Positions 34,381 to 36,592 of a stretch of 64,000 bases of DNA are shown here, piece after piece. The position numbers and the translations under genes are program-made. Position 1 is the first letter of the stretch. Each line of letters begins with the position of its first letter. Source of the DNA: Blastococcus sp. PRF04-17 (GTDB lineage Bacteria; Actinomycetota; Actinomycetes; Mycobacteriales; Geodermatophilaceae); assembly GCF_023016265.1 (NCBI RefSeq), contig NZ_CP095412.1:3596001-3660000 (forward strand), written 5' to 3'. The notes beneath the pieces were generated by a model. It saw only the letters and a program-made list of their open reading frames with translations. It did not search any database and was not told where the DNA came from.

Positions 34381-34410
34381 CGCGCCCGCGCCGGAGGGTT
34401 GGTGCCGGGG

Positions 34411-34845
34411 ATGAGCGGGATCGGAGCGGGCGTCCTCGTCGCGGCGCTGGTGGTCAGCGTCGTGGCGGCCTGGTGGCTGCGCACGCGCAGCGGAGCCGTC
34501 CGCGCGATCGGGGAGGGATCGGTGACGACGACGGTGTTCCAGCGGCTCGGCGTGCAGCCGGGCGCGGCCGCCCTCACCGTGGTCCAGTTCTCCACCGCGT
34601 TCTGCGCACCGTGCCGCGCGACGAAGGCCCGCCTGCAGCAGCTGCAGGCGACCCGGCCGTCGCTCGCGGTGGTGCACGTCGACGCCGAGAGCCACCTCGA
34701 CGAGGTGCGCGAGCTGGATGTCCGCCGCACCCCGACGCTGTTCTACCTGGACCGGGACGGACGGGTCCTCGGGCGCAGCAGCGGCGCACCGCAGGCCGAG
34801 GAGCTGACCGCTCTCGTGGACGCCCATACGGGGGCGACCGCGTGA
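34411..34845 (+). CDS. Membrane-anchored thioredoxin-family protein (ThiX-like)
   Basis: About 144 residues. One N-terminal helix (GAGVLVAALVVSVVAAWWL) is followed by a thioredoxin fold with the active site FCAPC, the cis-Pro in VRRTPTLFYLDRDG, and an ordinary C-terminal helix. A GTG at 34402, nearer to the GGAGG at 34393, is a possible alternative start. Its stop lies only 5 bases before the -10 element of the cysteine leader peptide. A role in reducing envelope or sulfur-carrier thiols is inferred from the fold and the sulfur genes that follow. Confidence 0.85.
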   Translation: MSGIGAGVLVAALVVSVVAAWWLRTRSGAVRAIGEGSVTTTVFQRLGVQPGAAALTVVQFSTAFCAPCRATKARLQQLQATRPSLAVVHVDAESHLDEVRELDVRRTPTLFYLDRDGRVLGRSSGAPQAEELTALVDAHTGATA

Positions 34846-34850
34846 TCGGC

Positions 34851-34856
34851 TACTCT
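34851..34856 (+). promoter_or_regulatory. -10 element of a leaderless cysteine leader-peptide mRNA
   Basis: TACTCT lies 6 bases before the GTG at 34863, the spacing expected when transcription begins at the start codon itself. No good -35 hexamer is visible, as is common in actinobacterial leaderless promoters. Confidence 0.6.
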
Positions 34857-34862
34857 CGCGCC

Positions 34863-34937
34863 GTGGGCACCCTGCTGACCTCTCGCCGCACAGTGGACCT
34901 GTGCCGCGTCGGCAGCTGCCTCTGTCCGTCCTTCTGA
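34863..34937 (+). CDS. Cysteine-rich leader peptide (attenuator uORF)
   Basis: 24 codons from GTG to TGA. The middle reads SRRTVDLCR, like the RRxVDL leader peptides found before actinobacterial sulfur genes; the end is CRVGSCLCPSF with Cys at codons 14, 19 and 21. No ribosome-binding site is present and the -10 element implies a leaderless start. It precedes DUF4395-cysA2-DUF1416, the same gene set that in Mycobacterium smegmatis is controlled by a poly-cysteine leaderless uORF. Ribosome stalling at the Cys codons when cysteine is scarce would then open the operon. Confidence 0.75.
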   Translation: MGTLLTSRRTVDLCRVGSCLCPSF

Positions 34938-34978
34938 GGACGGTTCCCGACCGTCCAGACGCGCCCTGTCCGCCGTCC
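34926..34978 (+). promoter_or_regulatory. Competing stem-loops after the leader peptide (attenuator)
   Basis: GGACGG (34938-34943) can pair with CCGTCC inside the leader's last codons (34926-34931), with the perfect arm ACCGTCC just downstream (34950-34956), or with CCGTCC at 34973-34978. These pairings exclude one another, as in an attenuator whose state depends on where a ribosome sits on the uORF. Confidence 0.55.
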
Positions 34979-34995
34979 GAAGGTCTGCTGCTCCC

Positions 34996-35427
34996 ATGAC
35001 TGCACCTGCCCGTCAGGTCGACGTGCGTGCCCCGCGCTTCGCCGCGGCTCTCACCTCCGTCGTCCTCGCCGTCGCGCTGCTCACCGGCAGCGGATGGCTG
35101 GTCGCCGCGCAGGCGGCCGCCTTCGCCGTCGGTGCGTTCGCCGGCCTCCGGGTCGCGCCCTACGGGGTGCTCTTCCGCGTCCTCGTCGCGCCCCGGCTCG
35201 GTCCGGTGCGCGAGCGGGAGCCGGAGGCGCCGCCGCGTTTCGCCCAGTTCGTGGGACTGCTCTTCGCCGTCGTGGGTGCGGCCGGCTACCTGGCCGGCGC
35301 GCCCGTCGTCGGCGCCGTCGCCACCGGCCTCGCGCTGGTCGCGGCTCTGCTCAACGCGGTCACGGGCTTCTGCCTGGGCTGCGAGCTCTACCTGACCGTC
35401 CGGCGGGTCCTGCCGGCCCGCACCTGA
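34996..35427 (+). CDS. DUF4395 membrane protein
   Basis: 143 residues with about four hydrophobic segments and the family's Cys-containing end, AVTGFCLGCELYLTVRR. DUF4395 proteins occur mostly beside rhodanese-type sulfurtransferases and thioredoxin-like proteins; a transport or thiol role is suspected but not shown. First structural gene after the leader peptide, 33 bases before cysA2. Confidence 0.82.
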   Translation: MTAPARQVDVRAPRFAAALTSVVLAVALLTGSGWLVAAQAAAFAVGAFAGLRVAPYGVLFRVLVAPRLGPVREREPEAPPRFAQFVGLLFAVVGAAGYLAGAPVVGAVATGLALVAALLNAVTGFCLGCELYLTVRRVLPART

Positions 35428-35459: not shown

Positions 35460-36287
35460 ATGAGCCGCAACGACGTGCTCGTCACCGCCGACTGGGCGCA
35501 GGAGAACCTGGGCACGCCCGGTCTCGTCTTCGTCGAGGTGGACGAGGACACCAGCGCCTACGACGGCGGCCACCTCGAGGGTGCCGTCAAGCTGGACTGG
35601 AAGAAGGACCTGCAGGACCCGCTGCGCCGCGACTTCGTCGACAAGTCCGGCTTCGAGAAGCTGCTGTCGGAGCGCGGCATCAGCAACGACGACACCGTGA
35701 TCCTCTACGGCGGCAACAACAACTGGTTCGCCGCCTACGCGTACTGGTACTTCAAGCTCTACGGCCACCGGGACGTCAAGCTGATCGACGGTGGCCGCAA
35801 GAAGTGGGAGCTCGACGGCCGCCCGCTGTCGAAGGACCCGGTGGAGCGCCCGGCCACGCAGTACCAGGCCCAGGACCCGGACCTGTCGATCCGAGCCTTC
35901 CGCGACGAGGTCGTCTCCTCGATCGGGTCGAAGAACATCATCGACGTCCGCTCGCCCGACGAGTTCTCGGGAAAGATCCTCGCTCCTGCGCACCTGCCGC
36001 AGGAGCAGGCGCAGCGCGGCGGGCACGTGCCGACCGCGAAGAACATCCCGTGGAGCAAGGCGGCCAACGAGGACGGCACGTTCAAGAGCGACGAGGAGCT
36101 GGCCAAACTCTACGAGGAGCAGGGCTACGACGACAGCAAGGCGACCATCGCCTACTGCCGGATCGGTGAGCGCTCCAGCCACACCTGGTTCGTGCTGCGC
36201 GAGCTGCTCGGCAAGCCCGACGTCAAGAACTACGACGGCAGCTGGGTCGAGTACGGCTCGCTCGTCGGCGTCCCGATCGAGAAGTGA
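35460..36287 (+). CDS. cysA2: Thiosulfate sulfurtransferase (rhodanese) CysA2-like
   Basis: 275 residues made of two rhodanese domains. The catalytic loop of the second domain is YCRIGERSSHTW, with the active Cys at about residue 233; the first, inactive domain holds VILYGGNNNWFAAYAYW. It moves sulfane sulfur from thiosulfate or a similar donor to an acceptor. The ATG follows GGAGG. It lies between DUF4395 and DUF1416, matching the mycobacterial cysA2-sseC pair. Confidence 0.93.
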   Translation: MSRNDVLVTADWAQENLGTPGLVFVEVDEDTSAYDGGHLEGAVKLDWKKDLQDPLRRDFVDKSGFEKLLSERGISNDDTVILYGGNNNWFAAYAYWYFKLYGHRDVKLIDGGRKKWELDGRPLSKDPVERPATQYQAQDPDLSIRAFRDEVVSSIGSKNIIDVRSPDEFSGKILAPAHLPQEQAQRGGHVPTAKNIPWSKAANEDGTFKSDEELAKLYEEQGYDDSKATIAYCRIGERSSHTWFVLRELLGKPDVKNYDGSWVEYGSLVGVPIEK

Positions 36288-36298
36288 GCTGACCTGAC

Positions 36299-36592
36299 AT
36301 GTGCGGAGCACCGAAGCAGGGCGGTTCCCTCGCGGGCATCGACCTGACGACCCAGACGGTCATCCAGGGGCAGGTCTGGCACGACGGCGCCCCGGTGGCC
36401 GGTGCCTACGTCCGGCTCCTGAACGACACCGACGAGTTCACCGCCGAGGTGGTGACCAGCCCCGAGGGCGAGTTCCGGTTCTTCGCCGCCCCGGGGCAGT
36501 GGAAGGTCCGCAGCCTGGCGCCGGTCGGCAAGGGCGAGCGCGCGCTCGACGCCGAGGTGGGCCTGAACGAGACGACCATCGTCATCGACTGA
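36299..36592 (+). CDS. DUF1416 protein (SseC-like)
   Basis: 97 residues beginning MCGAPKQGGSLAGIDL, with a carboxypeptidase-regulatory-like beta-sandwich (VIQGQVWHDGAPVAGAYVRLL). The family is found almost only beside actinobacterial rhodaneses (sseC in mycobacteria); a partner role to the sulfurtransferase is inferred. Last gene of the leader-controlled operon, 11 bases after cysA2. Confidence 0.88.
   Translation: MCGAPKQGGSLAGIDLTTQTVIQGQVWHDGAPVAGAYVRLLNDTDEFTAEVVTSPEGEFRFFAAPGQWKVRSLAPVGKGERALDAEVGLNETTIVID

Follow-up and report, generated by a model that had tools for sequence, protein, structure and literature searches.

Ribosomes stalled at poly-Cys tracts reportedly block the formation of structures that mask the ribosome-binding site. 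A mycobacterial small ORF with a cluster of Cys codons upstream of cysA2 is described by Shell et al. (2015; PMC4633059). Short ORFs with Cys codons close to their stop, lying upstream of actinobacterial cys genes and lacking a terminator, had been predicted earlier for the cys operons of Mycobacterium and of Propionibacterium acnes as well as for cbs of Bifidobacterium longum; these leaders carry runs of Cys codons, and Rho rather than masking of the Shine-Dalgarno (SD) sequence is suggested as the means of control (Seliverstov et al., 2005; PMC1262725). Two profiles cover such peptides, NF042933 ("Ms5788A family Cys-rich leader peptide") for the Ms5788A-type uORF of Mycobacterium and NF042934 ("putative leader peptide," a cis_reg_atten entry), which is a general domain model.

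Here we describe a leader of this kind in a stretch of 64,000 nucleotides from Blastococcus sp. PRF04-17 (the window). A preliminary description of this DNA had read TACTCT followed six bases later by a GTG, a 24-codon ORF with SRRTVDLCR and Cys codons at positions 14, 19, and 21, and one GGACGG with three CCGTCC copies. All of these readings agree with the letters of the sequence; the ORF runs from the GTG at 34863 to a TGA stop at 34935–34937, GGACGG lies at 34938–34943, and the CCGTCC copies lie at 34926–34931, 34951–34956, and 34973–34978. Pfam matches likewise confirmed the gene set after the leader as DUF4395, a CysA2-like rhodanese, and DUF1416 (Table 1). The uORF resembles the Ms5788A type in having a CysA2 operon downstream, an LTxRRxVDLCR core, a probably leaderless start, and Cys codons just ahead of the stop. 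It differs in that the Ms5788A type has a Cys run, whereas no consecutive run of Cys codons, a feature of poly-Cys leaderless attenuators, is found in the window's leader. In the Ms5788A type the Cys run itself is the anti-SD sequence, and in Mycobacterium loci it is able to base-pair with CAACAGGAGCA, the ribosome-binding site ahead of the following gene, while in the window's leader this part would fall to codons 22–24, past the last Cys. A thioredoxin-like gene (34399–34845; PF00085) ends five bases ahead of the −10 box of the leader, and the sequence upstream of the leader looks alike in many relatives.

Table 1. Features of the leader and of the genes that follow it (window coordinates; counts out of 58 refer to Geodermatophilaceae leaders).
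Feature	Position	Strand	Remarks
−10 promoter element TACTCT	34851..34856	+	−12 to −7 relative to GTG; start predicted to be leaderless
Leader uORF VGTLLTSRRTVDLCRVGSCLCPSF, with stop	34863..34937	+	conserved upstream of DUF4395; profile matches; start and spacing kept
Possible hairpin GCACAG-TGGAC-CTGTGC inside uORF	34888..34904	+	invariant in the 46 aligned leaders
Cys14 codon TGC, in VDLCR motif	34902..34904	+	TGC in 58/58
Cys19 codon TGC	34917..34919	+	TGC in 55/58, not Cys in 3
Cys21 codon TGT, proposed sensing position	34923..34925	+	TGT in 58/58
uORF tail, putative anti-SD arm GTCCTTC	34928..34934	+	CCTTC 34930–34934 can pair with GAAGG
Post-stop hairpin, GGACGGT 34938–34944 with ACCGTCC 34950–34956	34938..34956	+	93.8% of cells paired, two-sided changes
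SD GAAGG of DUF4395	34979..34983	+	masked by uORF tail in proposed off state
DUF4395 gene, proposed first regulated gene	34996..35427	+	PF14340 E 1.4e-44
CysA2-like rhodanese (sulfurtransferase)	35460..36287	+	PF00581 E 4.2e-31; NF008557 108 bits, below cut-off 250
DUF1416 gene, third of set	36299..36592	+	PF07210 E 6.2e-39

The peptide scored 42.6 bits with NF042933 when searched alone and 37.4 bits in a scan of the genome, below the curated cut-off of 45 bits, and it occupies the position typical of that family, ahead of the cysA2 operon. NF042934 gave 29.3 bits (alone) and 27.4 bits (genome scan), both above its cut-off of 27, while as a general model it also matches leaders that precede other sulfur genes in the family. 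Throughout the class, NF042933 matched 163 of 246 genomes at E 1e-4 or better, 34 of them above the cut-off, and it matched none of 14 control genomes. CysA2 was found by tblastn at all 30 of the best class-wide NF042933 loci, and a stricter motif detected the leader in 27 of these 30, with dispersed Cys codons in 16 of the 27 leaders read. Some other dispersed leaders pass the NF042933 cut-off, among them L252 with 63.8 bits. At E 0.1, NF042934 matched 107 of 108 Geodermatophilaceae genomes (100 above the cut-off) and one of the 14 controls, the latter below the cut-off. In kind the leader is ordinary: it is related to the Cys leaders already known from actinobacteria and has the dispersed arrangement found outside the mycobacterial group. 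Among the open-access papers listed in literature searches we found none on this leader outside mycobacteria, which is weak evidence of absence. With a limit of E 5, Rfam gave a pair of matches (E 1.8 and 2.5), both far below the gathering scores.

A DUF4395 match was found in 62 of 112 Geodermatophilaceae genomes. After removal of two duplicate loci of the own genome (L001 and L032), the leader was present ahead of DUF4395 at 58 of the 59 places read, own genome counted. This reading left out the match in G002 and partial matches in G027, G086, and G090; in the three genomes with partial matches, the region ahead of cysA2 was examined instead. The leader before DUF4395 is a real, well-conserved regulatory leader and not the product of chance. 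Cys14 and Cys21 were kept in every family leader and Cys19 in nearly all (Table 1). The sole place with DUF4395 but without the leader is L061, in genome G070, which is also the only one of the 108 genomes that NF042934 failed to match at E 0.1.

In 51 of the 58 leaders the first base of the T-A---T box is at −12, and in the other 7 it is at −13, leaving six and seven bases, respectively, between its end and the start codon, which is GTG in 50 leaders and ATG in 8. Such an exchange of GTG and ATG at a fixed distance from the −10 box would be expected of a leaderless start, and we infer that the mRNA begins at the GTG of the uORF. A joint scan of 34700–35100 for the −35 and −10 consensus of sigma-70 gave no promoter-like site. 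Conservation, spacing, and profile scores together bear out the earlier proposal of a Cys leader, probably leaderless, ahead of DUF4395-cysA2-DUF1416 and akin to the mycobacterial one.

We also examined 20 hand-picked genomes, of which 19 lack a full-length match to DUF4395 and one, G070, has such a match. The leader was retained in 18 of the 19 genomes without intact DUF4395, where it now lies closer to cysA2, and in the nineteenth (G009) the leader was assessed only at the second copy, which was negative. The leader count made by the script omitted loci L087 and L102. That the leader stays ahead of cysA2 without an intact DUF4395 fits the control of cysA2 as its purpose. At six loci (L083, L084, L085, L092, L097, and L099), remnants of DUF4395 that look decayed separate an intact leader from cysA2.

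The preliminary description had regarded the dispersed Cys codons as a variant of the mycobacterial mechanism in a distant family, a view that the wider comparison does not support. A motif search upstream of 80 named cysA2 loci, which like the other sampled loci are best-scoring matches and no random draw, detected 65 leaders. Neighboring Cys codons were seen in 34 of these, all in records of Mycobacterium, Mycolicibacterium, Rhodococcus, Rhodococcoides, and Nocardia. The other 31, including all leaders outside the Mycobacterium/Rhodococcus/Nocardia group, have dispersed Cys codons; they come from Blastococcus, Modestobacter, Geodermatophilus, Lentzea, Saccharopolyspora, Micromonospora, Actinoplanes, Catellatospora, and Nakamurella, from two MAGs, and from one Bacillus-titled (L176) and one Nocardia-titled (L192) record. 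Elsewhere, a terminal pair of neighboring Cys codons was seen in two leaders (L151 and L266). Because the dispersed form makes up the leaders outside the mycobacterial group, the arrangement of the window's leader is the common one there, as the class-wide best loci described above also indicate. The mechanism known from mycobacteria therefore has relatives across much of the class, and beyond the mycobacterial group these mostly carry their Cys codons dispersed. This suggests that the poly-Cys form may be a special case; the Cys run looks like a specialization. Among 40 further loci of the order, the motif found the leader in 20. At L109 and L126, of the same order, a longer uORF brings the stop codon next to where the following gene begins (GGAGGTGACATG), so that leader and gene are coupled.

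RNA structure was assessed in an alignment of 46 of the 58 leaders, nine of one genus (g8) and three of another (g5) being omitted for their shifted structure; four rows with a TAG stop (L012, L013, L018, and L040) were retained though out of register for the post-stop hairpin. Two helices were considered jointly, namely the hairpin just after the stop and a helix between the uORF tail and the SD sequence of DUF4395, a match that the preliminary description had missed. Together they were paired in 86.8% of the cells of the alignment, with 58 cells changed on both sides, and their paired fraction, double-change count, and covariation score were each reached by 0 of 500 shuffles, whereas the pair count and pair-type count did not beat the shuffles (67 and 401 of 500). 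On the tree, two pairs of the post-stop hairpin changed on the same branch 5 and 6 times against 1.47 and 0.71 expected. The tail:SD helix alone was paired in 80.7% of cells with 24 double-changed, and 0 of 500 shuffles reached either value or its covariation score, while two other covariation measures did not stand out from shuffles (146 and 500 of 500). When this helix was shifted by one column, the covariation score was 0.189 against 0.201 and the paired cells fell to 50.0%. Same-branch changes of its pairs numbered 2 and 3 against 0.44 and 0.70 expected (p 0.06 and 0.02). Because the shuffle and tree tests differ in strength for the two helices, the post-stop hairpin is well established, and the anti-SD helix is probable on somewhat weaker grounds.

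Complementarity between the tail and the SD sequence was also seen apart from the alignment of pairs. In all 58 leaders, with the SD window of L062 misplaced, native duplexes were stronger than duplexes with swapped tails (mean −10.7 vs. −9.1 kcal/mol; 0/5000 permutations). In the 46 aligned leaders, the longest perfect tail:SD run averaged 5.09 against 3.37 for shuffled tails (0/500), and windows of the leader other than codons 21–24 and 22–25 never gave a mean perfect SD run above 4.17. The longest run was only 3 in 10 of the 46 leaders, and the helix of the window itself contains a T-T mismatch that leaves five contiguous pairs (CCTTC:GAAGG). Codons 22–24 and the GAAGG or GGAGG opposite them give the exact bases for mutation. 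A single-sequence fold of the leader was not unusually stable (z −1.22; 24/200 shuffles as good).

Further pairings were also considered. A duplex test not confined to the tail, which paired long uORF ends with ribosome-binding sites across all actinobacteria and covered the 87 leaders with a usable start among 162 distinct ones, gave a weak result: 209 of 2000 permutations were as good within the family, 22 of 2000 outside it, and 1 of 2000 over all 87. In a clade without DUF4395 (L086–L096), the uORF is retained with no good tail:SD match by eye. The GCACAG-CTGTGC hairpin inside the uORF never varies and hence offers no covariation; in 161 of 162 leaders codon 10 has a purine at its third base (ACA in 101), which keeps this hairpin possible, and codon 6, taken as a control, reads ACC in 124 of 162. 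Re-pairing of GCACAG with CTGTGT at codons 20–21 was rejected, Leu20 being CTC in 18 of 58 leaders. Two helices proposed by RNAalifold for the 46-leader alignment, one between codons 15–16 and GACGYG of the linker and a small hairpin around Cys19–Cys21, had no cell changed on both sides.

Given that 34700–35100 holds no terminator-like site, that the uORF end matches the ribosome-binding site downstream of it, and that this end directly follows Cys codons, translational attenuation is the best reading, and the leader is probably a cysteine-responsive translational attenuator of DUF4395-cysA2-DUF1416. The sequence shows a conserved uORF with its start/promoter spacing and Cys positions, a post-stop hairpin, and tail/SD complementarity; from these we predict leaderless transcription, stalling, a response to Cys, and a direction of control as follows. 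The transcript would start at the GTG of the uORF, as suggested by the conserved −10 spacing. When Cys-tRNA is ample, the ribosome would pass codons 14, 19, and 21, terminate, and depart; the emptied codons 22–24 would then pair with the SD sequence of DUF4395, and DUF4395-cysA2-DUF1416 would be weakly translated. When Cys-tRNA is scarce, a ribosome stalled while its A site holds the Cys19 or Cys21 codon would cover codons 22–24 wholly or partly, the post-stop hairpin would stand alone, and the freed SD sequence would allow translation of the operon. A ribosome at Cys14 would leave codons 22–24 uncovered.

A fold model of the 46 sequences follows this scheme in part. With the A site blocked at Cys19 or Cys21, mean openness of the SD sequence rose from 0.21 to 0.32, and with a block at Cys14 or codon 8 it did not rise (0.21 and 0.19). 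Blocking at Cys21 raised openness in 33 of 46 sequences (by >0.2 in 15), and 13 failed to open. The largest opening (mean 0.37) came with a ribosome at the stop codon, so the model fails to single out Cys stalling. In the window's own fold the SD sequence closes on stalling, from 0.13 when free to 0.02 at both Cys19 and Cys21.

The repeats around the stop codon had been given another role in the preliminary description, in which GGACGG pairs by turns with the first, second, and third CCGTCC to form mutually exclusive stems, an attenuator and an anti-attenuator. Such a switch has in its favor that every copy is present in the window, that the minimum-energy fold of the window forms the first stem, and that the variable pair of this stem (67/78) co-changes on 3 branches against 0.67 expected (p 0.016). 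However, the first stem was paired in 74.3% of cells against 74.5% in shuffles, with 28 of 46 leaders unpaired at the variable pair, and the third stem in 84.1% against 84.0%, with no cell changed on both sides. The hairpin with the second copy is well supported and covaries, as does the tail:SD helix to a moderate degree, but the first- and third-copy stems are not well supported, and alternation among the three copies seems very unlikely to us.

Control might instead be exerted on transcription, if in response to Cys the stretch left untranslated after departure of the leader ribosome let Rho terminate before or within DUF4395. Rho was proposed for mycobacterial cys leaders without terminators by Seliverstov et al. 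(2005; PMC1262725), and an intrinsic terminator is absent here as well, no terminator-like site having been found in 34700–35100. Nevertheless, only 58 bases separate the stop of the uORF from the start of DUF4395, and the tail:SD complementarity argues for control of initiation, which makes Rho-dependent attenuation unlikely. It is also conceivable that the conserved RRxVDLCR peptide is an arrest peptide or nascent-chain sensor, with the Cys codons supplying just a share of the signal. Family leaders retain the amino acids Val11 and Asp12 despite variation at the third codon position (GTG/GTC/GTT and GAC/GAT), and a similar motif is seen again in Cys-poor leaders ahead of other sulfur genes; yet the third bases of codons 9, 10, 14, 18, and 21 are fixed in 58/58 family leaders, which means that a constraint at the RNA level exists too, and we consider a peptide sensor quite unlikely.

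The identity of the last Cys codon is a further conserved feature of the leader. All 106 distinct dispersed leaders use TGT for Cys21. The codon is TGC in 80 of 80 at Cys19 and in 101 of 104 at Cys14; these leaders are related sequences, and the counts are not independent trials. With a looser motif, the last Cys codon was TGT in 120 leaders and TGC in 1, and this lone TGC may reflect the script picking Cys19, as in a leader like L195. The Cys codons of cysA2 at the 80 named loci comprise 80 TGC and 1 TGT. The codons after VDLCR in poly-Cys leaders are mixed (100 TGT and 100 TGC), and TGC may be the last Cys codon in leaders that precede other genes (L076, L077, and L296), so the TGT rule is specific to the dispersed cysA2 leaders. 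Among the open-access papers listed in literature searches we found none on this UGU constraint, again weak evidence of absence.

Since the last Cys codon is UGU in all 106 distinct dispersed leaders, against UGC almost always at Cys14, Cys19, and the Cys codons of cysA2, the pause may depend on how tRNA-Cys reads UGU, and a wobble-read UGU at the decision point is one explanation that could account for the conservation of TGT. The reading of UGU might hinge on a sulfur-containing modification made by MiaB beside the anticodon of tRNA-Cys, which we take to be a substrate of MiaB, and a MiaB-type gene is present in the own genome. That the leader reads more than the charging of Cys-tRNA, the UGU pause sensing sulfur through tRNA thiolation in addition to cysteine, is a speculative and quite unlikely extension.

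Leaders of this type are not confined to cysA2. In the own genome, two further leader-like ORFs, VAETTVLLVGRIHVDLLRVCASRCPGR and VTDAGSLLVARLHIDLALVSSAACPAQR, precede a TauE/SafE gene and a nitrite/sulfite reductase gene. Their NF042934 scores, 20.6 and 20.3 bits, do not reach the cut-off of 27. These two HVDL/HIDL ORFs lie at L033:1501–1557 and L034:1501–1557 (C1:1975839 and C1:2196988), have few Cys codons, and each use TGT as the last of them. These weaker leaders before sulfur genes suggest a small sulfur regulon in this genome. Two of five weaker leader-profile matches there resemble pieces of longer reading frames. In relatives, like leaders precede a TauD-family gene (L287), a gene for an FAD-NAD(P)-binding protein (L295), and an ABC ATPase gene (L290) that is closest to MetN yet below the cut-off of that model. 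The script gave a leader at 7 of 10 and 9 of 20 loci in two sets of such other-sulfur-gene loci.
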